Positions 36,351-61,964 of a DNA stretch of 64,000 nt are shown one piece after another (the first letter of the stretch is position 1; each line of letters begins with the position of its first letter). The position numbers were made by a program, and so were the translations under genes. Source of the stretch: Pontibacter diazotrophicus (GTDB taxonomy: Bacteria; Bacteroidota; Bacteroidia; Cytophagales; Hymenobacteraceae); contig NZ_QRGR01000009.1 in the NCBI RefSeq assembly GCF_003367245.1, forward strand, positions 1 through 64,000, given 5' to 3'. Under the pieces are notes generated by a model. The model was not told the origin of the DNA. It did not search any database and worked only from the letters and a program-made list of their open reading frames with translations.

Positions 36351-36390
36351 CTGAAGCCGGAGCAGTCTTACCTGCTCCGGCTTCAGCTTT
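36351..36390. terminator. bidirectional terminator after fructose bisphosphatase
   Basis: CTGAAGCCGGAGCAG (36351-36365) pairs perfectly with CTGCTCCGGCTTCAG (36372-36386) around a six-base loop and is followed by CTTTATT. It separates the fbp gene from the converging DUF1080 gene. Confidence 0.88.
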
Positions 36391-36418: not shown

Positions 36419-39400
36419 CTAGATGCTTTTATTGTTTTTACCTAAATCCTTTACCCGAATATTTCTGAACCAGACAGTGGAGCCGTGGCCAAGAAAGCCG
36501 ATATGCCCTTTCGCGCGTTTCAGGCCGGGGTGGTTTTCGCCATCTAATGTGCCTCCCTTGCTGGCCTCTGCGATATCTCCATCCAGGATAGTCGTTCCGT
36601 TCAGAATCACTTTCACTTTGTTGCCCCGCACTATCACTTCCTCATAGTTCCACTCCCCCACCGGCTTCAGGTAACCGCGTTTGGCCGGTATCACACCGTA
36701 CACGGAGCCATGGTACTGGTACTCTTTCAGGTTCCTGTAAATATCAGCGTCGTTGTCCAATATCTGCAGCTCCATGCCCACATAGGCAGCATCCCCCTCC
36801 AGCGGTGTGCGGATGCCCAGGCCATTATTAGCGCCAGGTGTCAGCTTGAACTCGAAACGGAACACAAAGTCGCCATACTCCTCCCTGGTATAGAGGTTGC
36901 CCCCGCTGCCGAACTTTGGCTCCCGCACCACCATCTCACCGTTCTCAGTCACGTAGTCTGCTGTGTTGCCCTGCCAGTTGTGCATGTTGGTGCCGTCGAA
37001 CAGTACCTTAAACCCTTCCTTTTTCTCGGCGGCACTTAGCTCAAAAGGCTTGGCGCGGGGAATCTCACGGATGTACAGGTCCCGGTAAGCCACCGGGGAA
37101 CCATGTGCCTGCAACTCCAGCTGCTCTTCCGGGAAGATAGGCATGCCCCTGTCCCAGTAATTCTCCAGCATCACGTTGTCCGTCACCAGCTCTCCGTTCA
37201 GGTACACTGTCACACGGTCGCCCTGCATCAATATCCGGAAGTTGTTCCACTCGCCCAGCGGGTTGTCGGCTACCTTCAGCGGCTTGCTTGGGTTCACCTT
37301 GTTGTTGTACAGCCCCCCCGAACCTACCTGTGCCCCGGCATCCACGCGTGAGGTATCCCACATCTGCACCTGGGGCGTGCCCCGCAGGTAAATGCCGGCG
37401 TCTCCTTCCCCGCTGCCGTCGTCGTATATCTTCCAGTCCACGAACATCTCAAAGTCACCGTATTTCTTCTCTGTCGTAAGGTTATTGTATCCTTTGCCGA
37501 CAAAAACTATCTCGCCGTTTTCTACTTTCCAGTCTCTTCTCATTTCCTCGTCGGCCGCCGCCTGCTTCTGGGCCAGCGTTTTGCTGTCCATCTGCGCGCG
37601 CTTAATGGGGTCTTCCACCAGGCCTTTCCAGCCGGTCAGGTCCTTTCCGTTGAACAGCGACACAAAGCCCTCTCCCTCCGGCATTTCCGCCAGAAACGTG
37701 CTGATAGCCTCCTTCTGGTATTCACTGTCAGGCCCTTCCAGCACCTGCATCGTCTTCGTCAGGTGCTCCCGTACCACATCACCCTGAAACTCCTTGTTCG
37801 ACAGCGCGATGTTCATCACCGCCAGGGCAGCCTCCTGCTGCAGTTCAGGGTCGTCAAGGTACTTCGCGGCGAAGACCAGCGCCGGGAACGTCCTGTTCCG
37901 CTCCACCTGCTGCAGTATCAGCCGCTTCTGCTCTTTGGTTCTGGCAAGCTCCATCCCGTTACGAAGCAGCAGCAGTTTCTGGTCTGCAGGGTATTTGGAG
38001 AGGCTCACGGTGCGGATATATCCCTTCAATGCCGGATCAAGGTAGGCAGCATTTTCTGGTTCCCGACTGATGCGGTACAGCTCCTGGGCCGCGCTTACAT
38101 CGGACCATCCCGACAAAGCCACGACGGCGGCCTGTTTGGAAGCTGCATCACCGGTTCGGAACGCCTCTGAAACAGTATGGAGCGCCTGTTCCCCTCCGAT
38201 ACCCGCCAGGATATCAAAATAGGCTGACTTTTTTTCCGCAGGGGTCTGTGCCATTTGCTGCAGGACCAGCTCAGCCTGCTGCGGTTGCGTCTCATACTCC
38301 CGCACGGCCGCGATAACGGCTTGCTGCACCGCCTGCAGTTCCTCCGGCTGCGATGCATTGTTCAGGAGGGTATACAGCCGGGGGAGATCTTCTTTCCTGG
38401 CCATTTGCCCGAGTGCAGACAAGGCTGCCAATCGCACGGTTGGGTTGTTGCTTTCAGCATAGGAGAACACTTCATCTATCCTGTTATGCGCGGCGCGGGC
38501 ACCCAACACAGCCAACAGCTCCGCCTGCCCTTCTGCAGGCATTTTTGGCAGGGCGTCGGCTACCCTATCCGTCATGCCATCACCTTTCATGATAAGCAAA
38601 GCGTTCCTTACGGCGACGGCGTCCTCTTGATTGCCTTTCCTCATGACTCTGAGCAACTGGGGAAGTGCCTCTTCCTGCCCGATTTTACCGGCTGCTGCAA
38701 CAGCTGCCAGTCTTATCTCGTCATTCCTGTTCCGCAGCGCTCTGTTAACTGTGGGCAAAGCTGCCGTTGCTCTGTTGTCTCCCAGCATTGTAATAATGTC
38801 TGCGCGCACCGGTGCGCTTGCCCTCTTCTGTTTCTTTACCCACATAGCTGTTGTGGCGGGGTTAACATAGGGAGCGGCGAAACGCAGGGCAGAAGCACGG
38901 TATTCGGGGTCACTTTCGCCGGCCGCGCTCACGAGCAGTGGCATGCTTTTCTCGCCCTGTAGCTCGGAGAGCAGTTTTAAGGCGGCGGTGCGGGTATGCA
39001 CCTGCCTTTGCTCTTCAGCACGCTGCAGCAGCGACTGCGCCACCTTTTCTGCCTGCTGCTGCTGTCCGTTTTCTGCCAGGCGCCGGGCATAGAGCAGGTA
39101 GGCGGCAGCGGCGTTGTCATTGTCATAGGTAAACCTGTCCTCTTCCGCTGCCTTCGCCAGCACGGCCTCCGAAGAAGGGTCCGCAATGTTGGCAAGGGCG
39201 TAGAGGGCGAGCTTCCTTAGTTTCGCGTCCTGGCTGCTTGCCAGTGGCGTAAGGGCAGCCACTGCCGCTGTAGGTCGGGTGTCTCCCAAGGCCTCCACCA
39301 GTGCGTAGCGGCAGCTTCCCTGGGTGCTTTGCAGTGCCTGCAGCAAAGCACTGTTGCCGCTGGCCGTGTTGATGCTGGTCAGGGCTGCAGCAGCGGGAGC

Positions 39401-39850
39401 ACACAGCCGCTCATCCCCCAGGTAGGGCTGCAGGCAGGAAACGGCGTCGTCTTTGCCTACTATCTGAAGCTGCCGGATGAGGAACGCCTTGTTCTCTTCG
39501 TCGCTTGCTTTCGCCAGTGATGCACAGTAGGCGTCCACACTCATCTTTCTCCAGTCCTCCCTTGCCGACTGCATCACATAATAGGAAAAGCCGCCCAGGG
39601 CGAACTCTATTTTTGAGTTATCACCCTTGCCGGGCGCGGAGAGCAGGCTGGTCATTTCCACAAGGCCGTCCCGGCCCATGGCTGCCATCTCACCCATACT
39701 AGCCTCCAACTGCTCCTTGTCCCTGGCAGGCATCTCCGCCAGCAGGTCAGCAATCTTGGTGGTGAGTGTACGCTGGTCGTCCTTTCGTTGCCCCAGGGCC
39801 AGGGTACTGACAGTAACCAGGGCAAGGAGCAGTAGTGCTGTTTTTCTCAT
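36419..39850 (-). CDS. HEAT-repeat protein with two DUF1080 (3-keto-disaccharide hydrolase-like) domains
   Basis: A 1143-residue exported protein. Signal peptide (LLLLALVTVSTLALGQ), then about 650 residues of alpha-helical HEAT repeats (for example LRKLALYALANIADPSSEAV, IRLAAVAAAGKIGQEEALPQ, VRLAALSALGQMARKEDLPR), then two DUF1080 jelly-roll domains at about 722-940 (GFVSLFNGKDLTGWKG, GDFEMFVDWKIYDDGSGEG) and 943-1135 (GFKVLFDGTNMHNWQG, YGDFVFRFEFKLTPGANNG). Work on this family shows 3-keto-glycoside hydrolase or lyase activity. The neighbouring oxidoreductase gene, 64 nt upstream, would supply 3-keto substrates. The HEAT part may be a scaffold or a glycan/protein platform. Catalytic residues were not verified. 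Confidence 0.88.
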   Translation of the reverse strand: MRKTALLLLALVTVSTLALGQRKDDQRTLTTKIADLLAEMPARDKEQLEASMGEMAAMGRDGLVEMTSLLSAPGKGDNSKIEFALGGFSYYVMQSAREDWRKMSVDAYCASLAKASDEENKAFLIRQLQIVGKDDAVSCLQPYLGDERLCAPAAAALTSINTASGNSALLQALQSTQGSCRYALVEALGDTRPTAAVAALTPLASSQDAKLRKLALYALANIADPSSEAVLAKAAEEDRFTYDNDNAAAAYLLYARRLAENGQQQQAEKVAQSLLQRAEEQRQVHTRTAALKLLSELQGEKSMPLLVSAAGESDPEYRASALRFAAPYVNPATTAMWVKKQKRASAPVRADIITMLGDNRATAALPTVNRALRNRNDEIRLAAVAAAGKIGQEEALPQLLRVMRKGNQEDAVAVRNALLIMKGDGMTDRVADALPKMPAEGQAELLAVLGARAAHNRIDEVFSYAESNNPTVRLAALSALGQMARKEDLPRLYTLLNNASQPEELQAVQQAVIAAVREYETQPQQAELVLQQMAQTPAEKKSAYFDILAGIGGEQALHTVSEAFRTGDAASKQAAVVALSGWSDVSAAQELYRISREPENAAYLDPALKGYIRTVSLSKYPADQKLLLLRNGMELARTKEQKRLILQQVERNRTFPALVFAAKYLDDPELQQEAALAVMNIALSNKEFQGDVVREHLTKTMQVLEGPDSEYQKEAISTFLAEMPEGEGFVSLFNGKDLTGWKGLVEDPIKRAQMDSKTLAQKQAAADEEMRRDWKVENGEIVFVGKGYNNLTTEKKYGDFEMFVDWKIYDDGSGEGDAGIYLRGTPQVQMWDTSRVDAGAQVGSGGLYNNKVNPSKPLKVADNPLGEWNNFRILMQGDRVTVYLNGELVTDNVMLENYWDRGMPIFPEEQLELQAHGSPVAYRDLYIREIPRAKPFELSAAEKKEGFKVLFDGTNMHNWQGNTADYVTENGEMVVREPKFGSGGNLYTREEYGDFVFRFEFKLTPGANNGLGIRTPLEGDAAYVGMELQILDNDADIYRNLKEYQYHGSVYGVIPAKRGYLKPVGEWNYEEVIVRGNKVKVILNGTTILDGDIAEASKGGTLDGENHPGLKRAKGHIGFLGHGSTVWFRNIRVKDLGKNNKSI

Positions 39851-39914
39851 ATTTTTATTGGCTTTAGAGCGTCCTGTTCGATATTATCCTACTTTATATT
39901 AGCTGAAAGTTCAA

Positions 39915-41174
39915 TTAAACAAGTGTCCAGTCGGAGCGCATGGGCTGGTAGACCAAACGGTTAGCCGCCTCGTCCTGGATAAACTCCTGCTTTACCGGGT
40001 CAAACTTCAGGGAGCGCCCCAGGCGCAGCGCCGCCAGCCCCATGTTCACGAGCGTGCAGGACCGGTGGCCGTTTTCTTCGTTGAGGGCAAACTTTTTGCG
40101 ATTCTTTACCGCCTCCACAAAGTCCGTCACCTGCGGCTCTGGGTCGGGGAAGGCAGCCAGTTTCCGCTGCAGGTCCGGGATATCGGATCGGAAGCCGGGG
40201 TAAAGCTTTCCGTTGGGCCCCTCTATGTAAGGGATGTTCTCCTCCTTGCCCTCGCCGTCCAGGATAATCTGGCAGCCGTCGTCGTAGGTATAGGTGATGC
40301 GGCGCCAGGTGCCCACGGCGTCTGTGTGCTGCTGCGGGGCGTCAATCTCCACCGACACGGGGCTGGTGTTGTCCTTTCCGAGGAAGTACTGGATGGGGTC
40401 CATGTAATGCTGCCCCATGTCGCCGAGGCCGCCGCCGTCATAGTCCCAGTAGCCCCGGAAGGTGCCGTGCACCCGGTGCGGGTTATAAGGTCTGTAGGGG
40501 GCCGGGCCCAGCCACATGTTGTAATCCAGTTCCTGCGGCACCGGCATGGGGTCGAGGCTGGTTTTGCCTACCCAGTAGAACTTCCAGTCGTAGCCCGTTC
40601 CGCGGCCCACCGTCACTTTCAGGGGCCAGCCGAGCATGCCGCTTTCCACCAGCTTCTTGATAGGCTTTACCGGGGTGCCCATGCCGTAGAAAATATCCTC
40701 GAACCGGAACCAGGTGTTGAGGCGGAAGATGCGGCCGTGCTGCTGCACAGCCTCCACCACGCGCTTGCCCTCCCCGATGGTGCGGGTCATGGGCTTCTCG
40801 CACCAGATATCCTTGCCGGCTCTGGCCGCGTCGGCTGCCATCAGGCCGTGCCAGTGCGGCGGGGTGGCGATGTGCACGATGTCTACCTCCGGCAGCTGTA
40901 TCAGCTCCCGATAGTCGGTAAAGGTCTTCACCCCTTTCCCCACCATCTCCACTGCTTTCTTCAGATGGTTCTGGTCCACGTCACACACAGCCACCACCCG
41001 GGTGTCGCCGTAGGGGAAGTGGTTGCGGCCCATGGAACCCACGCCGATGACACCTTTGGTCAACTGGTCGCTGGGCGCCACGTAGCCCCTGCCCCCCAGC
41101 ACAAAGCGTGGAACAATGGTGAAAGCGGCGATGGTGGCCGCAGACTTCTTCATAAAATCTCGTCTTGAACTCAT
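39915..41174 (-). CDS. Tat-exported Gfo/Idh/MocA family oxidoreductase
   Basis: A 419-residue NAD(P)-dependent sugar oxidoreductase with a twin-arginine signal (SSRRDFMKKSAATIAAF), so it is folded with its cofactor before export. The Rossmann domain has KGVIGVGSMGRNHF, TRVVAVCDVDQNHLKKAVEM, DIVHIATPPHWHGLMAADAA and the family EKP motif in IWCEKPMTRTIGEGKRVVEA. The C-terminal alpha/beta domain includes GGLGDMGQHYMDPIQYFLGK, whose GDMGQHYMD carries a likely catalytic His. Exported members with a tightly bound nicotinamide oxidise the C3 hydroxyl of glycosides. It lies between the GH29 and DUF1080 genes (gaps 45 and 64 nt), forming one operon. Confidence 0.93.
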   Translation of the reverse strand: MSSRRDFMKKSAATIAAFTIVPRFVLGGRGYVAPSDQLTKGVIGVGSMGRNHFPYGDTRVVAVCDVDQNHLKKAVEMVGKGVKTFTDYRELIQLPEVDIVHIATPPHWHGLMAADAARAGKDIWCEKPMTRTIGEGKRVVEAVQQHGRIFRLNTWFRFEDIFYGMGTPVKPIKKLVESGMLGWPLKVTVGRGTGYDWKFYWVGKTSLDPMPVPQELDYNMWLGPAPYRPYNPHRVHGTFRGYWDYDGGGLGDMGQHYMDPIQYFLGKDNTSPVSVEIDAPQQHTDAVGTWRRITYTYDDGCQIILDGEGKEENIPYIEGPNGKLYPGFRSDIPDLQRKLAAFPDPEPQVTDFVEAVKNRKKFALNEENGHRSCTLVNMGLAALRLGRSLKFDPVKQEFIQDEAANRLVYQPMRSDWTLV

Positions 41175-41219
41175 GGAAGATTACATTGAAAGGGTGGAAC
41201 ACTTTGTTTTACCGGTAAG

Positions 41220-42578
41220 CTATTCTCTTGGGGAGGCTTTATAAAAACCCACTTCGGCTAACTGCACCGGCTGCTTCGCCTCCAACACGGTTATCCTGAC
41301 TCTGGAAGTTTTGATCTGCGGAAACCTTAGCAGCCGCTTATACCCGATGGTGGTGAACTGGTCGACCTGCTGCCATGCCTTGCCGTCCCAGTATTCCATT
41401 AAAGCAGTTACATTCCGTTGTCCCTCTGCGATGTTCTCCTGAAACATGGCTCTGTCAAAAGCTATTTCTTTCTGGAAATCCCATACCAAGGGTTGCTTTT
41501 CTTTTAGGGTGATGTAAGTAGTGAGTTTCTGGTCGGTTAACTGTTTTGTGACTCTTCCTACAGCCAGATTCTCACGAAAAGTCTCGTCCAGGATACTCCT
41601 GAAGTCATGCAGGCTGCGCACATCCTGTTCTGCGAAAAGGCCTTTTGGGTTCGGCGGGATGTTCAGCAAGAGTAAACTGTTCCTGCCTACTGACTTATAG
41701 TAGAGGTCCACCAGCTGCTTTCCTGATTTTACTTTGCTGTCTTCTTCCGGATGATAGAACCAGCCCGGCCGAATAGATACGTCCGTCTCCGCCGGAATCC
41801 ACAAACTGCCCTCCGGGTCGCCCACGTTCAGGTATTTCGGGTCTGCCTTTCCGGGTGCCATTCCCACTGTGTCAATCGTAGACCAGCATGTTTCGCCTGC
41901 GTTTCCGGATTCGTTTCCAACCCAGCGCACATCAGGCCCCACATCCGAGAACATGACGGCCTTTGGCTGCAATTCACGCACTAACTGCCAATACCCGTCA
42001 AAATCATATTCCATATTTTTGGCATTATCCCCTTTGGCGCCGTCGAACCATACCTCTGACACCTCTCCGTAGTTCGTCAGCAATTCGCGCAGCTGGTTCT
42101 TGTAAAAGGCGTTATAAGACGGCGTGCCATACTGTTCCTCATGCTGGTCCCAGGGGGAGAGGTAAAAGCCGAACTTTATCCCGTACTCTTGGCAGGCATC
42201 CGCAATTTCTTTTACTACATCGCCTTTGCCGTTTTTCCAGGGGCTGCTGGCAACGGTATGGTCTGTGTATTTTGATGGCCAGAGGCAGAAGCCGTCGTGG
42301 TGCTTGGCCGTGATGATGGCCATTTTGAAACCTGTGTCTTTCAAGGTCTTGACAATCTTTCGCGCATCAAAGTCTTTCGGGTTGAAGATCTGCGGGCTCT
42401 CTGTTCCGTCGCCCCATTCTTTTCCGGTAAAGGTGTTTACCGTGAAGTGCAGGAAGGCGGTAGTTTCAAGCTGTTGCCACTCCAGCTGGCGGGGTTCGGG
42501 CTTTGGCAGTTCCTGTGCTACAATGGGGGTGGAGGCTACTATGGCAGCTATAAGGGTAAACAAAGTGTGCTTCTTCAT
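41220..42578 (-). CDS. GH29 alpha-L-fucosidase
   Basis: A 452-residue exported retaining exo-alpha-L-fucosidase (signal ends STPIVAQ). The catalytic barrel shows WQQLETTAFLHFTVNTFTGKEWGDG, MAIITAKHHDGFCLWPSKYT (the HHDGF block), FGFYLSPWDQHE and the nucleophile in VSEVWFDGAKGD, ending in a short beta-sandwich tail. The longer frame starts at 42674, but the ATG at 42578 begins the signal peptide. It is the first gene of a three-gene set with the oxidoreductase and the HEAT/DUF1080 protein. Fucose occurs on rhamnogalacturonan and xyloglucan side chains, so it fits pectin degradation. Activity on alpha-L-galactose is a family alternative. Confidence 0.93.
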   Translation of the reverse strand: MKKHTLFTLIAAIVASTPIVAQELPKPEPRQLEWQQLETTAFLHFTVNTFTGKEWGDGTESPQIFNPKDFDARKIVKTLKDTGFKMAIITAKHHDGFCLWPSKYTDHTVASSPWKNGKGDVVKEIADACQEYGIKFGFYLSPWDQHEEQYGTPSYNAFYKNQLRELLTNYGEVSEVWFDGAKGDNAKNMEYDFDGYWQLVRELQPKAVMFSDVGPDVRWVGNESGNAGETCWSTIDTVGMAPGKADPKYLNVGDPEGSLWIPAETDVSIRPGWFYHPEEDSKVKSGKQLVDLYYKSVGRNSLLLLNIPPNPKGLFAEQDVRSLHDFRSILDETFRENLAVGRVTKQLTDQKLTTYITLKEKQPLVWDFQKEIAFDRAMFQENIAEGQRNVTALMEYWDGKAWQQVDQFTTIGYKRLLRFPQIKTSRVRITVLEAKQPVQLAEVGFYKASPRE

Positions 42579-42968
42579 AGGCGTGTTTCGGGTATGGTAT
42601 AACCAGCCAATTCTAACTGGTACTTTTACATTCTTGCTTCCTTTGTTCGGCCAGCACTCAACTGCCGATAGCAAAGGTAATCCGGATGCCAGCTGCTTCT
42701 TTGCTTTCAGAGTTTGGTACAGGTTACCAGCTGTGCACCGCAGCCATAGATTTGCTACATCATAATAGTCACTTTCTTAATCATTTGCAAGAATTACAAC
42801 CTGCTTCACCGCCTTTTTGAAGTTGAACCAAGACCTGTTCCTATTCATTTTATACCGAATCTTATGAAGCAGATTCCAGAATGTTGGTGAATTTTCAAAT
42901 CCGCCGAAGCTGCCGTAGTGCCTGTTCATCCAGCGGCATTAGACCTACTGTTTCATTGTGTTAGTCTT

Positions 42969-44624: not shown

Positions 44625-45524
44625 TTACTTGCTAAAATAGGCGGCGTACTCTTGGGGCAGTTCCTCCAGGCTTCTGATATTGATATCTTTGTAGTATACC
44701 TCGGCGGCTTCGCTCTGTAGCTGTATCTTTCCTTTGGTAAGGGGTTTGGGTTTGCCATTGTCCATGTAGCGGGAATTTTGAAGCACCATCACCACGTGCC
44801 CGTTCACTATATGAAGGCTTTTGTCCCCGAAGCAAACCAATTCTATATCTGTCCACTCCCCTGCCGGGCTCTCGTGGTCTTCGCTGCGCAGGCAGAACCC
44901 GCTCAGGTCTGTGCCTGCGCCAAGCGGCAGGAAAGGCTGCTTTGTGCTGGCTACGGTGTTCATGTCACCTTCCGGTATATAGGCACGCACATCTATCGCG
45001 GAGGAAGCGATGGTCCAGTAGTCGCCCATGTGCCCTTCCATTATCTGGAACTCCTGTGAGAGCATCCAGGCCCGCCAGTAATCCTTCCCGCTCTCGCCAA
45101 TGGAGTGGTACAGCACCCCGGAGTCTTTCAGTTTATTTGTTCTTGGCACCCATTTCTTGTCGCCCCACTTTACTTTCAGCTTCAGATGGTAATTTTCGAA
45201 CTCCTGCCTGGTGTAGACACATCCATAAATTTCACCGCTTACCTTCAGGACCGGCTCGCCCTCTTCCTCTACCACCGAGAATACATTATTAATGTTCTTG
45301 TTATACCCAATGGGAGGTATGATGCTTCCGTCTTCCTCTTTTGGCGCTTCGCCGTTGTAGCCGTCCTTGTGCCGGTAGCTTAAATACATTTCCCACTGCG
45401 ACAGGTCCTTATCCAGTAGCGGCTCCCATTTTTCTTCTGTATTGAAAGAACTGATGCCGAACACGCAAATAAAGATAAAGGCGCAGGCTGCCAGGCTCTT
45501 GTAAACTCCAGATATGTTTTTCAT
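44625..45524 (-). CDS. exported DUF1080 (3-keto-disaccharide hydrolase-like) protein
   Basis: A 299-residue single-domain DUF1080 protein with an N-terminal signal or anchor (AACAFIFICVFGISSF). The jelly-roll core includes EKWEPLLDKDLSQWEMYLSY, ENYHLKLKVKWGDKKWVPRT, KDSGVLYHSIGESGKDYWRA, QEFQIMEGHMGDYW and EWTDIELVCFGDKSLHIVNG. The family is linked to breakdown of 3-keto-glycosides together with Gfo/Idh/MocA oxidoreductases, one of which is encoded 3.5 kb away on the same strand. The gene is single here, divergent from the AraC regulator across 268 nt, so that regulator may control it. Confidence 0.9.
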   Translation of the reverse strand: MKNISGVYKSLAACAFIFICVFGISSFNTEEKWEPLLDKDLSQWEMYLSYRHKDGYNGEAPKEEDGSIIPPIGYNKNINNVFSVVEEEGEPVLKVSGEIYGCVYTRQEFENYHLKLKVKWGDKKWVPRTNKLKDSGVLYHSIGESGKDYWRAWMLSQEFQIMEGHMGDYWTIASSAIDVRAYIPEGDMNTVASTKQPFLPLGAGTDLSGFCLRSEDHESPAGEWTDIELVCFGDKSLHIVNGHVVMVLQNSRYMDNGKPKPLTKGKIQLQSEAAEVYYKDINIRSLEELPQEYAAYFSK

Positions 45525-45792
45525 ACTTTTTTAGATTTTGTTTTAACAGGATTCAAACTTCACTAGCACTTCTCACTTTGGCCCTGGAGGATAATTCCAC
45601 CTGGGTTTTAAGTGAGCCAATCACACCCACTGTGCGACACGGAACAGTTTCCCGTGCCTAGTGGCCAGGTAGAGAGCTGCTTCACCTGAAGGTTTGTGAG
45701 CGTTATCAAAAGTAGAAAAGGGAGCTCCTCATAACCTTGTACAAATCCATTGTTCTATGGTAAATCTGCCTACTTATTTGTACTTTCATTTT

Positions 45793-46647
45793 ATGAGACG
45801 CTATATCCAGTATGAACCCTTCAATATTTACCTGTTCGACACCAGTAAATGGGAGCACCCGGTTCATAAGCATTCTTACTTTGAAATTATCTTTATCAGG
45901 AGTGGGCGTGGGTTGCATGTGATAAATAACAACACTGTTTTGTACACAGCCGGTGATGTGTTTTTACTCGGACCAGAAGACTACCATTACTTTGATATTC
46001 AGGAGCATACTACCTTCTGCTACATCCGCTTTACAGAAGTTTATATAAAAGACGAGACTTTACTGAAGGTGCCTGACTACATGCGGACAATAGCGTTTAT
46101 CCTGAACTCGCCTTATCAATGCCAGGGAACAATTGTTTCAGACAGCGAAGAAAAGGAGCACCTCGACCGATTGCTGTCGGTGCTGCTTTATGAATACAGC
46201 AACCGGGGAGAAAGCTCCTACGAACTCATTATGCACAGCATCATGCAGGCGATGCTCGGCATACTGGCGAGGAACATGGTGCGGCAGAAGTTAATTGACA
46301 AAAAGAAAACGAAGAGTTCGAAGTTGATAGAAGACATCATGCTGTACATCAGCCAGCATATTTACGAGCCTGAGGCCTTGCGCATGGAGCGGCTGGTAGA
46401 GAAATTCAACTTTTCAAACAGTTACCTCAGTATCTTCTTTAAAAAGCAGACAGGAGAATCGCTGCAGCAGTACATTCTGAAGTATAAGCTGAAGATGATT
46501 GAAAGCCGCCTGCAATCCGGCGACAGGAGTATTTCCCAAATTGCTTATGAGTTTGGCTTTACAGATGGAAGCCACCTGAACAAATTGTTTAAGAAGTACT
46601 ATGGCGTGGCACCAGGCGCTTTTAAAGCTAAACAAGTGGCTGATTAG
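45793..46647 (+). CDS. AraC family transcriptional regulator with cupin sensor
   Basis: A 284-residue DNA-binding regulator. The N-terminal cupin-type sensor domain (about 1-110) has HPVHKHSYFEIIFIRSGRGL, VLYTAGDVFLLGPEDYH. The C-terminal AraC domain (about 180-280) has two helix-turn-helix units: LRMERLVEKFNFSNSYLSIF and the second with SISQIAYEFGFTDGSHLNKL before FKKYYGVAPGAF. Such regulators usually bind a sugar and activate adjacent genes. Its neighbours are DUF1080 (divergent) and GH28 (facing), so pectin- or keto-sugar-derived signals are plausible. The frame also offers an ATG at 45757; the one at 45793 (MRRYIQYEPFNIY) fits homologues better. Confidence 0.92.
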   Translation: MRRYIQYEPFNIYLFDTSKWEHPVHKHSYFEIIFIRSGRGLHVINNNTVLYTAGDVFLLGPEDYHYFDIQEHTTFCYIRFTEVYIKDETLLKVPDYMRTIAFILNSPYQCQGTIVSDSEEKEHLDRLLSVLLYEYSNRGESSYELIMHSIMQAMLGILARNMVRQKLIDKKKTKSSKLIEDIMLYISQHIYEPEALRMERLVEKFNFSNSYLSIFFKKQTGESLQQYILKYKLKMIESRLQSGDRSISQIAYEFGFTDGSHLNKLFKKYYGVAPGAFKAKQVAD

Positions 46648-47058: not shown

Positions 47059-48513
47059 CTAGTCCTGTACTTCAGGCGTTTCTTCAAATTCAATCTGTTC
47101 CCCGTTGATGATGACATCATTGAAAAAAACATCTTTTACATTAGAGAATTTATAAGGCACATCTACCTTGTTTATCTTTACATTTATCAGGCGCAGGTTC
47201 TCTACCGGCGACTGCTCGTAACCCTCCAGGAGCACCCCCACTTTGCCACCATTTTTTACCGTCATGTTCTTTACCTCGATGTTGCGGACAGTAGGCAGGT
47301 AAGGGCCTTCGTCTTCGTAGAACATATTGACGCGGATTATCTGCTCTGCTACCTGCCCCACCTCTATATTGCGCAGGTATACGTTTTCTACCACCCCACC
47401 ACGCATAGAACTTGTTTTAATGCGCAGCGCTCTGTCGAGCAAAGGGCTGTTCATGGTGCAGTCCTCCGCAAACACGTTCCGCACACCACCTGATATCTCG
47501 CTCCCGATGACCACGCCACCATGTCCGTTGGCCATCGAGCAACCCTGTATGATGATATTCTCGCTTGGCACATTAATACGGCGGCCATCGGCATTTCTGC
47601 CGGATTTTATGGCAATGCAATCGTCTCCGGTGTTAAAGTAGCAGTCTTTGATAAGCACGTTTTTACAGGATTCAGGGTCGCAGCCGTCGGAGTTTGGCCC
47701 CTGGCTCTCGACGGTTACCTGCTGTATGGTTACATTCGTGCACAGCACGGGGTTCAGTATCCACATGGGTGAGTTGATGATGGTGACGCCCTCTATCAGC
47801 ACATTCTCGCAGCGGTAAGGCTGTACGAACTGCGGGCGCAGGTAAAAACCTTCTCCAAACTGACGCTCGCTGACAGGCACATTATTCTCTGCCATTTCGA
47901 ACAAGGCGGCTCTTTTATCGTCGTCGGTCTGGTTTGGTGTACCTGCTTGCCAGCCATACTTTTTGTTTCCTTTCCAGGGCCACCAGTTGGTTTCATTTGC
48001 CTGACCATCTAAGGTGCCCTCGCCTGTTACAGCAATGTTCTTTTCTTCGAAGGCGTAAATCAGGGGCGAGTAATTCATCAGCTCCACTCCTTCCCAGCGG
48101 GTATACACCAACGGCAGGTAATCTTTTGGATTTGTGGAGAACAGGATAGTGGCGCCCTTCTCCAGGTGCAGGTTTACGTTGCTCTCCAGGTAAATCGGAC
48201 CTGACAGGTACTTCCCTGCCGGCACTACCACACGTCCGCCACCTGCCTGGTTACAAGCCTCTATAGCCGCTTTTATGGCTGCAGAATTATCCGCCTTTCC
48301 GTCTGCCAGGGCACCATACGCCATGATGTTGAAATCCCTATCCGGAAAAGTGGGCGGCACAATCTGCGTCAGAACTTCAGCGGCATGTTCCCAGGCATCA
48401 GTGGAGGCTGCTGCCTTAGATTGATTGGCTGTATTGCTACTGTTACTGCAGGAAGAGAATACCGACATAAGTATAAAAGCAAGAAAAGGAATTGAAGAGC
48501 GGACTAATTTCAT
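47059..48513 (-). CDS. GH28 polygalacturonase-type glycoside hydrolase, lipoprotein
   Basis: A 484-residue right-handed beta-helix enzyme acting on galacturonan, exported with a lipoprotein signal (VFSSC). The family motifs are present: NSDGCDPESCKNVLI (normally NTDG), GDDCIAIKSGRN with the catalytic Asp pair, GHGGVVIGSE and RALRIKTSSMRGG. The N-terminal strand-rich cap starts DFNIMAYGALADGKADNSAA. In pectin loci such enzymes are exo-polygalacturonases or rhamnogalacturonan hydrolases. A second GH28 of different length is encoded at 55895. It is the last gene of the pectin block, and the AraC and small-protein genes converge on it. Confidence 0.94.
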   Translation of the reverse strand: MKLVRSSIPFLAFILMSVFSSCSNSSNTANQSKAAASTDAWEHAAEVLTQIVPPTFPDRDFNIMAYGALADGKADNSAAIKAAIEACNQAGGGRVVVPAGKYLSGPIYLESNVNLHLEKGATILFSTNPKDYLPLVYTRWEGVELMNYSPLIYAFEEKNIAVTGEGTLDGQANETNWWPWKGNKKYGWQAGTPNQTDDDKRAALFEMAENNVPVSERQFGEGFYLRPQFVQPYRCENVLIEGVTIINSPMWILNPVLCTNVTIQQVTVESQGPNSDGCDPESCKNVLIKDCYFNTGDDCIAIKSGRNADGRRINVPSENIIIQGCSMANGHGGVVIGSEISGGVRNVFAEDCTMNSPLLDRALRIKTSSMRGGVVENVYLRNIEVGQVAEQIIRVNMFYEDEGPYLPTVRNIEVKNMTVKNGGKVGVLLEGYEQSPVENLRLINVKINKVDVPYKFSNVKDVFFNDVIINGEQIEFEETPEVQD

Positions 48514-48541
48514 TTTCGGGGGATTAGGTCGATGCTAAAAT

Positions 48542-48943
48542 TTATCGCCTCTCAGTTGCTGCCAGCATGGGAGTGCCTCTTTTACAAAGCTGCAGGGCAA
48601 GCCCCCATGGGTCGCGAAGCATCACCAGGTGTGAGCCATCCTCCAGGCGCTGATCAGACACGACACTGGCTCCTGCTTTTTCCAGCCGTTCTTTGTCAAG
48701 TGCAGGGTCTTCGGAAACAAAGGCAAGGTGCACCAGCAACGGGTTCATGTCTCTATAGGGCGGCACCTCATCTGCAGGGTTCAGGTAGATTTCAATCATG
48801 ATTCTGTCGCTGTCATCAGCCAGGAACGTCATATACGGCGGCTCCTTTAACTGCTTTACAACCTTCAGGCCCAGGTGCGTCACATACCACTCCGCCATTG
48901 CTACAGGCGCTTCCACATTCAGTGCAAAATGTTCTAGTTTCAT
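48542..48943 (-). CDS. VOC superfamily (glyoxalase/bleomycin resistance) protein
   Basis: A 133-residue cytoplasmic protein made of two beta-alpha-beta-beta-beta modules: KLEHFALNVEAPVAMAEWYV TH at the start and LLVHLAFVSEDPALDKERLE in the second half, ending HLVMLRDPWGLALQLCK. The metal ligands of the family (a His near the start, a Glu near the end) are partly visible (HFALNV; MIEIYLNP). Function unknown: VOC proteins include glyoxalases, dioxygenases and isomerases. It sits within the pectin block, 28 nt upstream of the GH28 gene on the same strand, so a role in handling a sugar-derived metabolite is possible. Confidence 0.82.
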   Translation of the reverse strand: MKLEHFALNVEAPVAMAEWYVTHLGLKVVKQLKEPPYMTFLADDSDRIMIEIYLNPADEVPPYRDMNPLLVHLAFVSEDPALDKERLEKAGASVVSDQRLEDGSHLVMLRDPWGLALQLCKRGTPMLAATERR

Positions 48944-49035
48944 AAAATGAGTCGTTATGTATCAGCGTATTCTACTTCTTAAAGATAAGGTTAGCCTTCC
49001 TTCAAACAAGATTCTTTCAGAAAGTCAGCGGAAGA

Positions 49036-50256
49036 TCACTTCAACCACTTCTCCAGCCAGGCAAAGGCATCTTCCTGCATCGCGATGGTCATAGAATGCG
49101 GCACATCGTAGTACTTCACTGCAAAGTTCTCCGGGGCTTTCATACTGGAATAGATGGTGGAGAGTTTTTCTTCGGCAGCCTGCATCCCGGTCAGGCTGAA
49201 AAGTTTGTCCTGTTTGCAGTTCATCACCATCAGGGGGCGCGGTGCATTCAGAGAAGCGACATCAGGCAAATCGAGGAACTGGTACTGCCGCGGCACATAC
49301 ATCATCCAGGTATGGTGCGCGTGTTGCTGCAGCATCTGCTCATACGTAGTGGAAAATGCCGCTATAACACCAGTCTTTATCCGTGAGTCAAGGCCAAACA
49401 AATAAGTGCTGCGCAAGCCGCCCAGGGACAGGCCGATGCAGCCAATTCGCTCCGGATCTACCTCCGGCCGGGACAAAAGAAAGTCTATGGCTACTCTGTC
49501 GTTTTGGGCGATGATGCCAAGCCAGGTAGTGCCGGAGGTCAGGATGGTTTTGTTCATCGCCACTTCATTCGGCCCTGCCACCTGCTTGTTGTAGATTTGG
49601 ATGCGCTCGCTTTCGCTGGCCCCTTCCACTTTCTTGTCGTATCCTTTTGCATCTGTCAGCAGTGCCGGGTCCAGCTTTTGAGATCCAAAGTATGGAGCAT
49701 CAGGGCAAAGCACCACAAAGCCACGCTTCGCCAGCTCATCCGCATAATACCGGCCCTCATACAGGTTCTGCACATACGCTTCCAGTATGTCCGGCTGATT
49801 ATCGGTTAGCGTATGTTTCTCTTTCCCGAAGAAGTAAAACCCGCCATGGTCGTGCAACGCGATAACGGCAGGCGCTGGTTTGGTTATGTTATCAGGTACA
49901 AGCAGGAAGGCTTCCGTCTTCTGCAAAGCGTTGACATTATAGCGCACCAGGTACTGCGTGTAGCCTTCCCGCTTCGTAGTGCTTAAAATTTCAGAGTTGA
50001 GCGGTGCCGGTTCAGGATTGAAAGCGAGCAGCTCATTCAGTTTTGTTTTGGCTGTTTTCCGCCACTTCTCCACACTCCGCCAGTTTCTTGACAGGTAAGA
50101 CAAGCGGCTGTTGTTTTTGCTGGAGTAGGCATCCAGCAGGGGGTAAAAATTTCCTACATCGGATTTAGGTTGCTCCTGAGCCTGTAAGGTACTGCTCACA
50201 CAGCACAAAGAGGCGAAGAAGCAAGCAACCCATATGTTAAAGATATTTTTTATCAT
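49036..50256 (-). CDS. exported alpha/beta-hydrolase, putative carbohydrate esterase
   Basis: A 406-residue protein with a signal peptide (ends STLQAQ) and an alpha/beta-hydrolase domain. The nucleophile elbow is GLSLGG, an oxyanion region is visible in AVIALHDHGGFYFFGKEKHT, an acid is likely in NCKQDKLFSLTG, and the catalytic His in YYDVPHSMTIAM. The overall look is that of acetyl-xylan-esterase/dienelactone-hydrolase relatives used as pectin acetyl- or methylesterases in Bacteroidota loci. Its place between GH95 and VOC genes supports a deacylation job on pectin side chains, but the bond it cuts cannot be told here. Confidence 0.8.
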   Translation of the reverse strand: MIKNIFNIWVACFFASLCCVSSTLQAQEQPKSDVGNFYPLLDAYSSKNNSRLSYLSRNWRSVEKWRKTAKTKLNELLAFNPEPAPLNSEILSTTKREGYTQYLVRYNVNALQKTEAFLLVPDNITKPAPAVIALHDHGGFYFFGKEKHTLTDNQPDILEAYVQNLYEGRYYADELAKRGFVVLCPDAPYFGSQKLDPALLTDAKGYDKKVEGASESERIQIYNKQVAGPNEVAMNKTILTSGTTWLGIIAQNDRVAIDFLLSRPEVDPERIGCIGLSLGGLRSTYLFGLDSRIKTGVIAAFSTTYEQMLQQHAHHTWMMYVPRQYQFLDLPDVASLNAPRPLMVMNCKQDKLFSLTGMQAAEEKLSTIYSSMKAPENFAVKYYDVPHSMTIAMQEDAFAWLEKWLK

Positions 50257-50278
50257 AAAATATTGTAAAAGGCGCTTC

Positions 50279-52762
50279 TTACCTCATCTGAAGCTGGTAT
50301 ACCTTGCCTTTTTTTGTGGTTAAATCTACTTCAATCACTTTGGGTATGTCCGATTTTTGCAAATCTGCTTTTGCTGAAACCAAAGGTTCTTTCACCGCAG
50401 CTGCTCGGTAAAAAGGATTTTCATTCTCTCCCTGGGCCTGCTTCAACTCGCCTTTTCCAGCCAAGGTTAAAGGGCTTGAAGTACGGATTCTACAGTTTCC
50501 TCCCAGATTTGAATGCACCGTTAGTGTTTTCACTTTTCCGTTCTCCCAGCTCATGTCCAGCACGAAACCACCTCTTGCCACCAGCCCCTTCACCTCACCA
50601 GATTGCCAGGCGTCTGGCAACGCAGGAAGCAAATGAATAGCCCCATCGTGACTCTGCACCAGCATTTCGGCCATACCAGACGTACACCCAAAGTTACCAT
50701 CTATCTGGAAAGGCGGGTGCGCATCGAAGAGGTTCGGGTAAGTGCCTCCCCCTTCTCCAGAGGCCTCGCTGCCAGCAGGCGTTAGCTGGTCCTGGATAAG
50801 TTTATAGGCGCGATTCCCATCCAGCAGCCTTGCCCACAAATTCACTTTCCAACCCATAGACCAACCTGTAGACCGATCTCCACGGTACACTAACGAATTT
50901 CTGGCGGCAGCAAACAAGGCAGGGTTGCTGAACGGAGACACCTGGTTACTGGGGTACAAACCATAGAGATGCGACACATGGCGGTGCTTATCGCCTGTTC
51001 TGTCCCAGTCGTGCATCCACTCCTGCAACTGGTTATGCTGCCCTATTTGCATGGGCGGCAGCCTGTCTCTTTTTGCTTTCACCGTATCCGCAAAAGCTTT
51101 GTCTGTGCCCAATACCTCCGCTGCACGAATTATGTTGGAAAAAACATCGAATACCAGCTGGTTATCCATAGTAGTGCCTGCCGCAATAGAAACACCGCTC
51201 TGGTGCGCGTTTTCAGGGGACATGGACGGTGCTACTACCAGCCACTTGCTAGAGGGTTCCTCCTGCAATACATCTACATAAAACAGGGCTGCGCCTTTCA
51301 GCACAGGGTACATCTCCTTCAGGAATTTCTTATCGCCTGTAAAAAGGTAATGCTGCCAGATATGCTGCGTAAGCCAGGCTCCTCCCATCGGCCAAAGTCC
51401 GTAAAAAGCGCCATCTATAGGACCCGTCATGCGCCAGATGTCGGTGTTGTGGTGCATGTTCCAGCCTCTGGCCTTGTACATGGTGCGGGCACTTTCTTTG
51501 CCTGTCTCCGCTAAGTCTTTGAGCAAGGCAAAGAGCGGTTCGTGCATCTCTGGCAGGTTCGTTACTTCCGCAGGCCAATAGTTCATTTCTGTGTTGATAT
51601 TGACAGTATACTTGCTGTCCCAGGGCGGCGAGACTTTATCGTTCCAGATACCCTGCAGGTTGGCAGGCTGGGTACCAGGCTGTGAGCTGGAGATAAGTAA
51701 ATACCTGCCGAACTGAAAGTATAGCGCCGCCAGATGCGGATCGTTTCCGTTGGCAAAAGCAGCCAGGCGTACATCAGTAGGTTGCTGCTCCGCCTCGGTT
51801 ACGCCCAAGTCTAAGGATACTCTGTCGAAGTACTTTCTGTAGCTTTTGATGTGGGCTTCCTTTGCCTTTTCATATTTCTTCCTGCTGGCCCCGCTCAGGT
51901 ATTTCGCTGCTTTTTCAGCTTCATTGTCACTTATATCTTTATAGCTTCTGAAGTTTGTACCCATCGAGATATAAATGGTAACAGCATCGGCACCTGTAAT
52001 CTGCAGCGAAGTGTCCGTAGCAGAAACGTTTCCTCCTTCCACTACAGGTTGTACCTGCGCCTGGAATTTAACCTTCCCTTTTTTGTTGTCTACATCGCCT
52101 GAAACGCCTGCCAATACCAGCTTGTTTTGTGCTGCTGCCACTGTGTATTGCTTGTGCGGACTATTCATGCTGAGCGTACAGGTGATGCTTTTCGGCCTGT
52201 CGGCGGTTAACCTAACCACAATCACCTCGTCAGGAAAAGACGTAAACATCTCCCTTTTAAAAGTAACGCCATCCACTTTATAAGACACAGAGGCTACAGC
52301 CTGCTCAATGTTCAGGTCACGGTAATAGTCTTGTGCGGTATCATGATGGGGAAAAGTTAAAAATAAATCCCCCACGGGCTGATAAGGCATTCCATAGTTG
52401 TTGTCGGCAGGAGCATGCCTGGGGACTTTCTCCAGCGCCAGTGCTTGCGCCTCTTTATGCTTCCCTTCAAAAACCAGCCTGCGTATTTCGGGGAGTGCAC
52501 TATTTAATGCTGTGTTCGTGTTATTGCCAGGCTCACCCGCCCAAACTGTTTCTTCGTTTAGCTGCAGCTGCTCACGCTCAGGATTTCCGAAGACCATCGC
52601 ACCGATGCGCCCGTTTCCGAGAGGCAAAGCTTCATTCCAATTGTCAGCTGGCTTTGTATACCACAGTTTCAAGGCTGGAGCCTGTACAGACTGTGCAAAA
52701 ACATTGCTACACAGAAGCCACCACATAAATGCCACCAAGTAAAGGCGATTGAATTTATACAT
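50279..52762 (-). CDS. GH95 alpha-L-fucosidase / alpha-L-galactosidase
   Basis: An 827-residue exported inverting glycosidase. Signal peptide (ends CSNVFAQ). The N-terminal beta domain begins [49 protein letters not shown]. The (alpha/alpha)6 barrel follows, with [40 protein letters not shown] and [20 protein letters not shown], then a C-terminal beta domain. GH95 enzymes remove terminal alpha-1,2-fucose or alpha-L-galactose; in pectin loci both occur on rhamnogalacturonan side chains. A GTG-started extension to 52810 is possible, but the ATG at 52762 begins the signal peptide. The gap to the CE12 gene upstream is 50 nt. Confidence 0.94.
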
Positions 52763-52812
52763 GCATGCTAAGTTTAAGTTTGCTGCTGATATTTCCACCT
52801 CCTGCCTCACCT

Positions 52813-53628
52813 TTACTTCTTCGCCGTCGGCTCTGCCGGCTTAAGTTTTTTCATACCGTTGTATACCAGTTGGGCCACTGCCCTGGCTCCCTCTGGCTGG
52901 AAATGCGTATTGTCCTTCTGCCCGTCCGGATAGGCTTCATACTTGCCAGCTGGCAGGTTCATGAAGTAGTGGTCGGTGACATACTCCTGCCCTTTGGCTG
53001 TGAAGGCATCAATGGACAGCTGTGTCAGGTCGATGAGCGGCACGTTTAGTTCTTTGGCTACGTCTTTTACCGCCTGCGGGTATTCGCCGTGCACATTACT
53101 TAGATTGCTGTCTTTCCAGGGATAGTTGCGGTTAACGGGTGTGAGGAGTATGGGCAGTGCGCCTTTTTCGCGCGTCTGTTTTACATACAGCCGCAGATAC
53201 TCTTTATAAGCGGGTACATTGGTGTAACGCTCCGGCTTGTTTTCGGCGGCATCGTTGTGCCCGAACTGCATCATCACCACATCATTTTTCTGCAGCGCAT
53301 TATAAACTTCTGCCCAACGGCCTTCTTCAAAAAAAGTACGTGTGCTACGGCCGCCTCTTGCTTTGTCTACTACCACTACACTGTCGCTTTTGATGATATT
53401 CCTGATCTGCCGAAGGCTGTCAGGGCGCATAAACGGTTGGAATACCTGCCCCCACCCTGCTACCGGATAGCGTGTGGCCATGTAGTCTTCAGCGTCATAG
53501 TCTCCGGTATAATCCGCGACAGTTGAATCCCCGATGAGGTATACTTTTACCGGATTTTTCTTTAAAGGCGCGAAAGCAGCAAAGGCTATACTGATTAATA
53601 ATAGAAGGATACCGATGTACTTTTTCAT
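52813..53628 (-). CDS. CE12-type rhamnogalacturonan acetylesterase (SGNH fold), first copy
   Basis: A 271-residue exported esterase of the SGNH/GDSL fold that removes acetyl groups from rhamnogalacturonan I. A signal or anchor lies at the N-terminus ([16 protein letters not shown]). Block I is [11 protein letters not shown] with the nucleophile Ser. Block II is [16 protein letters not shown] (Gly). Block III is [15 protein letters not shown] (Asn). Block V is [17 protein letters not shown] with Asp-x-x-His. Between the GH95 and second CE12 genes (gap 23 nt), it belongs to one operon. Removal of acetyl groups opens the backbone to GH28 and PL10 enzymes. Confidence 0.93.
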
Positions 53629-53651
53629 AGGAATAGATTATGAAATATAGC

Positions 53652-54446
53652 TTACTTTTTCAGCCGTTTGGCCACTTCTGGTAAAGCCGTTTGCATTTCC
53701 TCGGCCACCAAGTCGCTCACTCTAAATGCGCCATAAGCCGACAGGTGCGTGTCATCAGAGCGTCCTTCCGGCAGCGACTCATACTCGTTGGGCTCCAGGT
53801 GCAGGAACAGCGCCTTGGACTTTTCTTCGCCATAGCGAGACACCAGTTCTTTCGTGCGTTTCTCTAGGTCCAGCAGAGGGACATTCTGTTTCGCAGCCAT
53901 TTCCCTTACCACCTCCGGATACTTACCATGCGTATCGGTGAGTTCACCGTCTTCGAACTTTCTTCGCACAATAGGTGTGGCCAGCACCGGTATGGCACCT
54001 TTTGCCCGCGTCTCTGAGATGTAGCGCTCCAGGTTCTTGCGGTAGTCTGTTTCGGGTGCAGCGTAGCGTTTAGGGTCCTGGTCTTTCTGGTCGTTGTGGC
54101 CGAACTCGATGATGACGTAGTCGCCCTTTTTTAGCTTTTGTAGCACTTTGTCCCAGCGGCCTTCGTCGCGGAAGCTCTTGGTACTCCGCCCATTCACCGC
54201 ATGGTTCTCTACCTTTACGCCTTCCTGCAGGTAAAGCGGGAATACCTGTCCCCAACCTTTCTCCGGATTGCCTTTGCTGTAGGGTTTGTCTGCCAACGTA
54301 GAGTCTCCTATCAGGAAAATGGTGGTTTCTTTCTTCTGGATGTGGCTGAGCAGGGGGAGCATCAGGAGGACAAACAGCCCCCATCGTATCGCATTTTTAA
54401 AAAATATTAAACTCTTGGTCATCATATTGTACATAGCATTTATCAT
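53652..54446 (-). CDS. CE12-type rhamnogalacturonan acetylesterase (SGNH fold), second copy
   Basis: A 264-residue paralog of the preceding product with the same blocks: IFLIGDSTLADKPYSKGNP, NGRSTKSFRDEGRW, VIIEFGHNDQKDQDPKRY and DDTHLSAYGAFRVSDLV (Asp-x-x-His). The N-terminus has a hydrophobic export segment (GLFVLLMLPLLSHI); ATG codons at 54446 and 54425 are both possible. The two copies are clearly diverged, so they may act on different acetylation sites. Located 113 nt downstream of the PL10 lyase gene on the same strand. Confidence 0.92.
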   Translation of the reverse strand: MINAMYNMMTKSLIFFKNAIRWGLFVLLMLPLLSHIQKKETTIFLIGDSTLADKPYSKGNPEKGWGQVFPLYLQEGVKVENHAVNGRSTKSFRDEGRWDKVLQKLKKGDYVIIEFGHNDQKDQDPKRYAAPETDYRKNLERYISETRAKGAIPVLATPIVRRKFEDGELTDTHGKYPEVVREMAAKQNVPLLDLEKRTKELVSRYGEEKSKALFLHLEPNEYESLPEGRSDDTHLSAYGAFRVSDLVAEEMQTALPEVAKRLKK

Positions 54447-54559
54447 TCATTCAAGCGCTTTGCTTAAAAATATGTGCCGCCAGCGCTTTGGAGTTTTTAG
54501 GATCTACCGCTGCTGTTATCTCTGAGCGAAGGCAACCAGCGTAAATTTTTTCAGGCAAC

Positions 54560-55789
54560 TTATTTTTGTGTAGTCCCCCACTTCTGCTTCCAGTCAGGGT
54601 AATCTTTCTCCAGCAGCTCCTGCGGGGAACTGACGTACCAGCTATAGCCATTTCTTCGCTCCTCCTCTATCTCTGAAAGTTTGTCCCGCACAATTCCATC
54701 ACGGCCTACAAACATCGGCTTGTTTGTTCCTATCTCATAAAAACGGGCCCACAAGGGAGGTGCCGAGGGGTCTTTGACCACTACTGCATTATGGCCTCTT
54801 TTCATGGAAGGATCCTTTACCCTATCCACCCGGATTCCGGTTATCTTTACACGCTCCAGCCACGATACCGCTCCCTCCACGGCACGCACTATATCCGGGC
54901 TTGGGTTCTCTATTTCCATCAGGTACTTTACAATGCCCACGCTTTCACCACCGCTGACAGATCGTAACTCATAAGCACGGGCTTTCTGAGGAGTTAAGTC
55001 GTGGCGGTCGTGCTGTGCACACCATGCGGTTAGCCTGCCGTCTACTTTTATCTGTGTCTGCAGAATTACATGCAGGCCCTTTTCGATGGCTTTAGCTGCC
55101 AGATTTCTTCGTGCAGCGTCTACAAAGGTATAAGGCTCTTTTCTTTGAGCCACATCGCGTAACAGCTGCATCACTCCGATCATGGCCCCATCATTAAAAG
55201 TGATGTGCTCATAATATCCTTTTCGAATAGGATAGTATTGTGGCCATCCGCCATTTTCGTATTGGGCCTCCAACAAATAGTCCAGTCCCCGCAGAAAGCC
55301 TTTTTTGTATTTCTCCTGCCCCGTAGCCTCATACACCCTCGCCATGTATTCCAGCTGTGTGAAGGTGGCACCATTATCAATTGTTGCTACATCCTCCTTT
55401 TCTGCTTTGGATAGGAGCACTTCTTTCTCTTCCTCAGACAAAATTTTTGCCATATCCGTGTTCTTATGCCAGCCACCATTATTGCGCTGATACAAAAGGA
55501 GATTGTCGGCGATGCGGACAGCTTCAGAACCGGAATACCACTCCTGATTCTGCTGTAGTATGCCCCTGCCCCACCTGATAGACTCAGCAGTTTGAGCAGT
55601 CTGTGTTTGGCCGGTACAACTGGTAGAAGAGATGCAGCACAGCAGGAAAAACGCCAGTAGAACAACTGTGCGTTTTAGAGATTTGAGCTCACATTTTAAT
55701 AATCCATTAGATTTAATATCCACAATCAGTTGTCCCGGGCTTACTGGCTTAGAATAACTCCAATTCCTCCTACCGCGAGTCCTGTTCAT
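54560..55789 (-). CDS. PL10 family pectate lyase
   Basis: An approximately 409-residue exported lyase that cleaves demethylated homogalacturonan by beta-elimination. The PL10 body begins SIRWGRGILQQNQEWYSGSE and contains LLLYQRNNGGWHKNTDMAK, TIDNGATFTQLEYMARVY, ENGGWPQYYPIRKGYYEHIT and FNDGAMIGVMQLLRDV, then TAWCAQHDRHDLTPQKARAY with SVSGGESVGIVKYLM. The signal (LLAFFLLCCISSTSC, lipoprotein-like) starts about 40 residues in, after a basic stretch, which is unusual. The upstream ATG (55789) may be wrong; in-frame GTG/TTG codons near the signal are alternatives. The true start is unsettled. Confidence 0.9.
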   Translation of the reverse strand: MNRTRGRRNWSYSKPVSPGQLIVDIKSNGLLKCELKSLKRTVVLLAFFLLCCISSTSCTGQTQTAQTAESIRWGRGILQQNQEWYSGSEAVRIADNLLLYQRNNGGWHKNTDMAKILSEEEKEVLLSKAEKEDVATIDNGATFTQLEYMARVYEATGQEKYKKGFLRGLDYLLEAQYENGGWPQYYPIRKGYYEHITFNDGAMIGVMQLLRDVAQRKEPYTFVDAARRNLAAKAIEKGLHVILQTQIKVDGRLTAWCAQHDRHDLTPQKARAYELRSVSGGESVGIVKYLMEIENPSPDIVRAVEGAVSWLERVKITGIRVDRVKDPSMKRGHNAVVVKDPSAPPLWARFYEIGTNKPMFVGRDGIVRDKLSEIEEERRNGYSWYVSSPQELLEKDYPDWKQKWGTTQK

Positions 55790-55849
55790 AGTTTTTTATT
55801 ACAATTGCGTTAACTGATTGAGTAGTGGCAAAGGATTTATACAATTTAC

Positions 55850-55884
55850 AGAAAGCAGCTTATGCTAACCATGGGCTGCTTTCT
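55850..55884 (-). terminator. hairpin between GH28 and PL10 genes
   Basis: AGAAAGCAGC (55850-55859) pairs with GCTGCTTTCT (55875-55884). On the minus strand it lies 11 nt after the GH28 stop. No strong T run, so it may stabilise an upstream transcript end rather than stop transcription. Confidence 0.6.
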
Positions 55885-55894
55885 GCTTCATATA

Positions 55895-61957: not shown

Positions 61958-61964
61958 GCCCTTA

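Follow-up and report, generated by a model that had tools for sequence, protein, structure and literature searches.

Does a fucosidase gene that stands beside two genes of a putative oxidative glycoside-cleavage pathway form one system with them? This is the question raised by a locus in the stretch of DNA that we analysed, 64,000 nucleotides of Pontibacter diazotrophicus (contig NZ_QRGR01000009.1, positions 1 to 64,000; hereafter the window). Three neighbouring genes encode a GH29 fucosidase, a Gfo/Idh/MocA oxidoreductase with a twin-arginine translocation (Tat) signal and a protein in which a HEAT-repeat solenoid is followed by two DUF1080 domains (a and b). The original prediction had read them as a single operon that opens glycosides, possibly fucosides, through 3-keto intermediates in the periplasm. 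Oxidative cleavage of this kind is a recently found route whose breadth is unsettled. We conclude that the oxidoreductase and the HEAT-DUF1080 protein probably constitute a two-gene periplasmic module cleaving glycosides via 3-keto intermediates, with the fucosidase as a neighbour in part of the genus Pontibacter.

We studied the distribution of the genes in a sample of 99 related genomes, the window's own included, and counted an oxidoreductase as close at E <= 1e-100. A full-length HEAT-DUF1080 protein was found in 19 of the 99 and a close oxidoreductase in the same 19 (14 Pontibacter and five genomes outside the genus); in all 19 the two genes adjoin. A contig scan gave at least 559 oxidoreductase relatives, and the best 80 of them, two of which are Pontibacter, were named as loci, so that this set leans towards close relatives. 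In 77 of the 80 named loci DUF1080 lies downstream of the oxidoreductase: 71 have the HEAT part with both domains, three have a and b, two have the HEAT part with a (one of them, L062, is cut off by the contig end) and one has the HEAT part with b. Across an evenly drawn sample of 395 Bacteroidota genomes the presence of the HEAT-DUF1080 protein is patchy, with nine genomes carrying it. Leaving out our own genome and G070, which had already been counted, all seven newly found genomes have the oxidoreductase next to the HEAT protein, with identities down to 59%, and two genomes without the HEAT protein are also without the oxidoreductase. The plasmid search gave one record that covers at least 80% of the HEAT protein, and a Parabacteroides distasonis plasmid record holds the pair with 70% (oxidoreductase) and 44% (HEAT protein) identity to that of the window. 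Overall the pair was found in Pontibacter, Rhodocytophaga, Dyadobacter, Larkinella, Runella, Pedobacter, Mucilaginibacter, Sphingobacterium, Chitinophaga and the P. distasonis plasmid record. Judged from these neighbourhoods the conserved operon is one of two genes, not three: the adjacency of the pair is strict and a GH29 beside it is the exception, and the proposed three-gene operon did not hold up as a conserved unit.

The oxidoreductase matches PF01408 with 77.9 bits and PF19051 with 494.8 bits and has the Rossmann and C-terminal alpha/beta domains of the Gfo/Idh/MocA family. Its signal scored 19.9 bits with the twin-arginine model TIGR01409 (cut-off 16.7), the RRx[FL] motif was present in 78/78 orthologues counted and TatC is encoded in the same genome, which makes the protein a predicted Tat substrate and agrees with the original prediction. 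K127 of an EKP motif, D252 and H256 are invariant in both oxidoreductase alignments (A1, 15 rows; A4, 27 rows), and the EKP and GDM..H motifs also line up with structure 8tdf; the three residues presumably form the catalytic set expected of the family. The best fold match of the oxidoreductase model is a glucoside-3-dehydrogenase, the closest solved structure by fold being of the AL3 type, and GH109 is present low in the list. As an alternative, the oxidoreductase could by itself act as an NAD-dependent glycosidase of the GH109 or sulfoquinovosidase sort, with oxidation, elimination, hydration and reduction all taking place at a single site, and the HEAT-DUF1080 protein would do no more than bind the glycan. 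We regard this as distinctly improbable, because the glucoside-3-dehydrogenase ranks 5 to 7 Z units above the GH109 and sulfoquinovosidase-type enzymes, because DUF1080 lies downstream in the 77 loci given above and because domain b keeps the E-x-Q, D and H like five solved members of its family.

The HEAT-DUF1080 protein begins with a Sec-like signal peptide (judged by eye) and matches PF06439 in two stretches (287 bits), both over the gathering score, and HEAT_2 with 110.7 bits. Its AlphaFold2 model, built from 40 sequences, has a pLDDT of 88.2 and displays a helical solenoid as far as residue 722, followed by two beta-rich domains. All of the top 15 Foldseek matches were DUF1080 structures and HEAT proteins came after them. 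The tandem protein BT3469 (4jqt) ranked first, followed by single-domain structures including BT2157, and the DUF1080 matches comprise two 3-keto-2-hydroxy-glucal hydratases and a ligand-bound 3-keto-glycoside eliminase/hydratase. The residue pattern of the eliminase/hydratases (E-x-Q, D, H) was seen in domain b only, and its E-x-Q and H are also found in the five solved DUF1080 members with alignments shown. Domain a has Q827 for the Glu, invariant in 40/40 alignment rows. In 15 other DUF1080 domains, 14 from elsewhere in the genome and one at 44625-45524, the same position holds Glu in 13 cases; the two exceptions are one poorly aligned row and, in a second tandem-DUF1080 protein of the genome (473 aa; C13, L123 4875-6296), the first domain, which is without E-x-Q. 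Tandem DUF1080 proteins may thus retain one odd domain. Natural variants indicate that the domains are separable: L063 has retained HEAT and b, L052 has HEAT and a with a separate DUF1080 gene upstream, and in genome G093 a stand-alone DUF1080 protein that is 67% identical to b adjoins a BT2158-like dehydrogenase of 307 bits (L040 9243-11280). An FtsX/MacB-type gene precedes the stand-alone gene in G093. We rejected a 2807-residue form of the HEAT protein in one locus as its open frame runs through N. The gene at 44625-45524 encodes a single-DUF1080 protein (299 aa, with ∼31% identity to the HEAT-protein domains that is confined to a short stretch) and was set aside as a part of the system because it is weakly similar to either domain.

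The fold matches to a glucoside-3-dehydrogenase and an eliminase/hydratase, the Tat motif and the strict adjacency together support the periplasmic 3-keto route that had been proposed for the two proteins. From the observed gene order, conservation, signal and fold we infer the following chemistry. The oxidoreductase would fold with NAD, be exported by Tat and oxidise C3 of a sugar residue. Domain b would expel the aglycone by beta-elimination and/or hydrate the 2-hydroxy-3-keto-glycal. Domain a, with Gln for Glu, most likely binds the sugar or performs just one of the two half-reactions, and the HEAT solenoid would hold the parts together. Reduction of a 3-keto product would return the bound cofactor to its starting state, as has been proposed for the Bacteroides enzymes. 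A further-reaching version, which we consider rather unlikely, is that the solenoid docks the dehydrogenase by two unlike DUF1080 sites that split elimination and hydration, with intermediates passed on unreleased and the almost invariant dehydrogenase serving one shared glycoside across Bacteroidota. If this were true, one half-reaction would fall to the Gln-type domain a and the remaining one to domain b of the Glu type, and the reactive 3-keto and glycal intermediates would be channelled.

The conservation of the individual parts bears on a second alternative. Across the named loci the median identity is 79% for the oxidoreductase, 71 and 72% for the DUF1080 domains and 43% for the HEAT part; the conservation score is likewise lowest for the solenoid (0.54, compared to 0.80 for domain a and 0.79 for domain b). 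An oxidoreductase at 79% beside a HEAT part at 43% would suit a pair that does not degrade glycans at all. The oxidoreductase would then modify either an envelope sugar of the cell itself or some inositol-like compound, and the role of the HEAT-DUF1080 protein would be that of an envelope scaffold. Such high conservation is unusual in a catabolic enzyme. The conserved neighbour in Dyadobacter points the same way: by cluster count it was a candidate partner of the pair, and it was rejected as it is a carboxyl transferase. Nevertheless the two DUF1080 domains are strongly conserved as well, the presence of the protein in the sampled Bacteroidota is patchy and further enzymes of the 3-keto type accompany the pair in Pedobacter and Pontibacter, so that we judge the envelope role to be distinctly improbable. 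In Pedobacter a second dehydrogenase of ∼484 aa follows the pair in 14 of 15 loci; the three that were listed each carry a twin-arginine signal, and the single one that was run against BT_2158_fam scored 471 bits. A GMC oxidoreductase follows the pair in 7 of the 19 relatives. The genome of the window itself also has a GMC/Gluconate_2-dh3/cytochrome c/DUF1080 locus (C36) and a GMC-like/Gluconate_2-dh3/DUF1080 locus (C43), and the module in the window is thus a parallel version and not the only one of its genome. According to the portion of PMC9007349 accessible to us, loci of this kind carry out periplasmic oxidation of lactose.

The fucosidase behaves differently from the pair. It is a GH29 member by its PF01120 match and aligns over its full length with solved GH29 enzymes (best 4zrx, 443.7 bits, residues 3-450; the next structures include alpha-1,3/4-fucosidases). 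Of the 19 relatives, four have a GH29 of the window's type next to the pair (the window, G025, G037 and G043); all four are of one genus and count among the 14 pair-bearing Pontibacter genomes, and this adjacency needs two changes on the HEAT-protein tree. For seven orthologues with 58-78% identity (G056, G051, G060, G026, G088, G076 and G064) we examined the position, and all seven lie apart from the pair, in G056, G051, G060 and G064 far from it within the same genome; those of G098 and G083, also >55% identical, were outside the seven. Among the 80 named loci tblastn and a GH29 profile found any GH29 near the pair only in Pontibacter sp. E15-1 (L042), and GH29 queries and the profile found none at the P. 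distasonis locus. These neighbourhoods led us to reject GH29 as a general partner of the pair, and on their evidence it is a neighbour in part of Pontibacter and not a part of the general module.

Within Pontibacter the idea of a fucosidase partner fared better. In G023 (L024 804-5101) a second GH29 kind, 25% identical to that of the window and with 404.8 bits to PF01120, is encoded on the strand of the pair and two genes upstream of it; the gene in between is for a glucose/sorbosone dehydrogenase that also has PKD and cytochrome c domains. In G022 this second kind stands beside an additional copy of the pair that is broken (L039 5325-9410; the intact pair is elsewhere in that genome), and in G037 a 131-aa remnant matching its start is found just upstream of the window-type GH29 (L022 3869-4264). 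The pair may be used on fucosylated glycans in Pontibacter, as two unlike fucosidases recur there. A stronger form of this would have the fucosidase and the 3-keto pair act, within Pontibacter at least, as one operon on the same fucosylated oligosaccharides. The tight gene spacing in the window, the four adjoining window-kind genes and the second kind in G023, G022 and G037 speak for it, an intact GH29 being found within ∼5 kb upstream of the pair in 5/14 Pontibacter genomes. On the other hand no GH29 was found in this upstream stretch in the other nine Pontibacter genomes and the five relatives outside the genus, 79 of the 80 named loci and the P. distasonis locus are without one, and the seven examined orthologues and the two changes on the HEAT tree count against it as well. 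A common fucoside operon is hence quite improbable, and we retain the two-gene module.

Several observations weigh against this module. The oxidoreductase reached 162.1 bits with BT_2158_fam (NF058561, the glycoside 3-dehydrogenase equivalog), compared to a curated cut-off of 750, with the match spanning model positions 1-286 of 487, and the mean pLDDT of its structure model is 67. Among the 15 other DUF1080 domains, only 8 have the D of domain b and only 7 its H. Three of the 80 loci have no DUF1080 downstream: L081 and L097 have neither part and L118 has HEAT alone. The neighbours of the pair vary widely (sulfatases, GH20, glucose/sorbosone dehydrogenase, carboxyl transferase) and give no common substrate. 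Finally, a Thermogutta DUF1080 member is cited as an endo-xanthanase/lichenase in the sections of PMC9007349 and PMC5673643 that we could consult, and DUF1080 alone is thus no proof of 3-keto chemistry.

As predicted from the open reading frames, the three genes share the minus strand, with gaps of 45 nt (GH29/oxidoreductase) and 64 nt (oxidoreductase/HEAT-DUF1080), and the Pfam matches bore out all three families. The terminator scan listed no minus-strand terminator-like site in either gap. The element listed upstream of GH29 is of a type that we take to be the Bacteroidota -7 element, and the GH29 open frame reaches at furthest to a TTG at 42674. As the numbers of promoter and terminator sites that the scans gave for the window are at chance level, co-transcription of the three genes is plausible only. 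The coordinates are collected in Table 1.

Table 1. Features of the three-gene locus, in coordinates of the window.
Feature	Position	Strand	Basis
GH29 alpha-L-fucosidase gene	41220-42578	minus	PF01120, 148.8 bits
Gfo/Idh/MocA oxidoreductase gene, 419 aa, probable glycoside 3-dehydrogenase, Tat signal	39915-41174	minus	PF01408 and PF19051
Twin-arginine signal region, residues 1-30, RRDFMKK	41085-41174	minus	TIGR01409 and orthologue motif
D252...H256 (GDMGQH), candidate catalytic set with K127 of the EKP motif	40407-40421	minus	Invariance
HEAT-DUF1080-DUF1080 gene, 1143 aa, probable 3-keto-glycoside eliminase/hydratase on solenoid	36419-39850	minus	Pfam, AlphaFold2 model, Foldseek
HEAT solenoid, residues 29-722	37685-39766	minus	Model helices
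DUF1080 domain a, residues 728-932, Gln827 at usual Glu site	37055-37669	minus	Alignment
DUF1080 domain b, residues 938-1136; E1027, Q1029, D1032, H1122	36443-37039	minus	Alignment, solved members
TACCTTTG, possible -7 element 5' of GH29	42672-42679	minus	Promoter scan
15-pair hairpin, possible terminator	36351-36386		Between two convergent genes, beyond the last gene of the trio

Other genes around the pair were noted in passing. Two sulfatase genes lie upstream of it in Pontibacter flavimaris (L041 6000-9041) and the P. distasonis cluster with the pair holds one arylsulfatase. The window also contains a pectin-type utilisation cluster at 47059-63662 with two GH28, GH95, a pectate lyase (PF09492), GH43, a pectinesterase, GH88, two GDSL esterases and SusD, and an AraC regulator at 45757-46647.

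We found no name or description of the HEAT-DUF1080 combination in the open-access literature searched, a weak negative as most subscription journals were outside its scope. In the available part of PMC10434189, the sole paper with both terms, the HEAT repeat and DUF1080 are on separate genes. The locus presents a strictly linked pair in which the second enzyme comes as two DUF1080 domains carried by a HEAT solenoid; such a pair offers a test of physical coupling between the steps and of the purpose of having the domain twice. Of the known systems, the 3-keto pathway of Bacteroides and Alistipes (BT2157-BT2158, AL2/AL3; 3osd, 8tda, 8v31, 8tdf, 8tdh) is alike in combining a Gfo/Idh/MocA dehydrogenase fold with a co-encoded DUF1080 protein. 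The text of PMC11300592 available to us presents BT2158 as a glycoside 3-dehydrogenase of the periplasm, and according to an excerpt of PMC11501099 deletion of BT2157 or BT2158 caused no growth defect on raffinose-family sugars. In contrast to that system, the oxidoreductase of the window lies outside the BT2158 equivalog, its DUF1080 is doubled and fused to a HEAT solenoid of ∼700 residues, and the unit is without a sugar-isomerase-like gene and without a second dehydrogenase gene. The GH109 enzymes and NAD-dependent sulfoquinovosidases share the Gfo/Idh/MocA fold. The tandem BT3469 shares the two DUF1080 domains, whereas it is without the HEAT solenoid. The LacABC-type glucoside 3-dehydrogenases with DUF1080 of Caulobacter and Pedobacter (PMC9007349, as far as accessible) likewise pair periplasmic C3 oxidation with a subsequent DUF1080 protein; their dehydrogenase is a GMC flavoprotein with a cytochrome partner, whereas that at 36419-42578 belongs to Gfo/Idh/MocA and the trio holds neither a GMC flavoprotein nor Gluconate_2-dh3.

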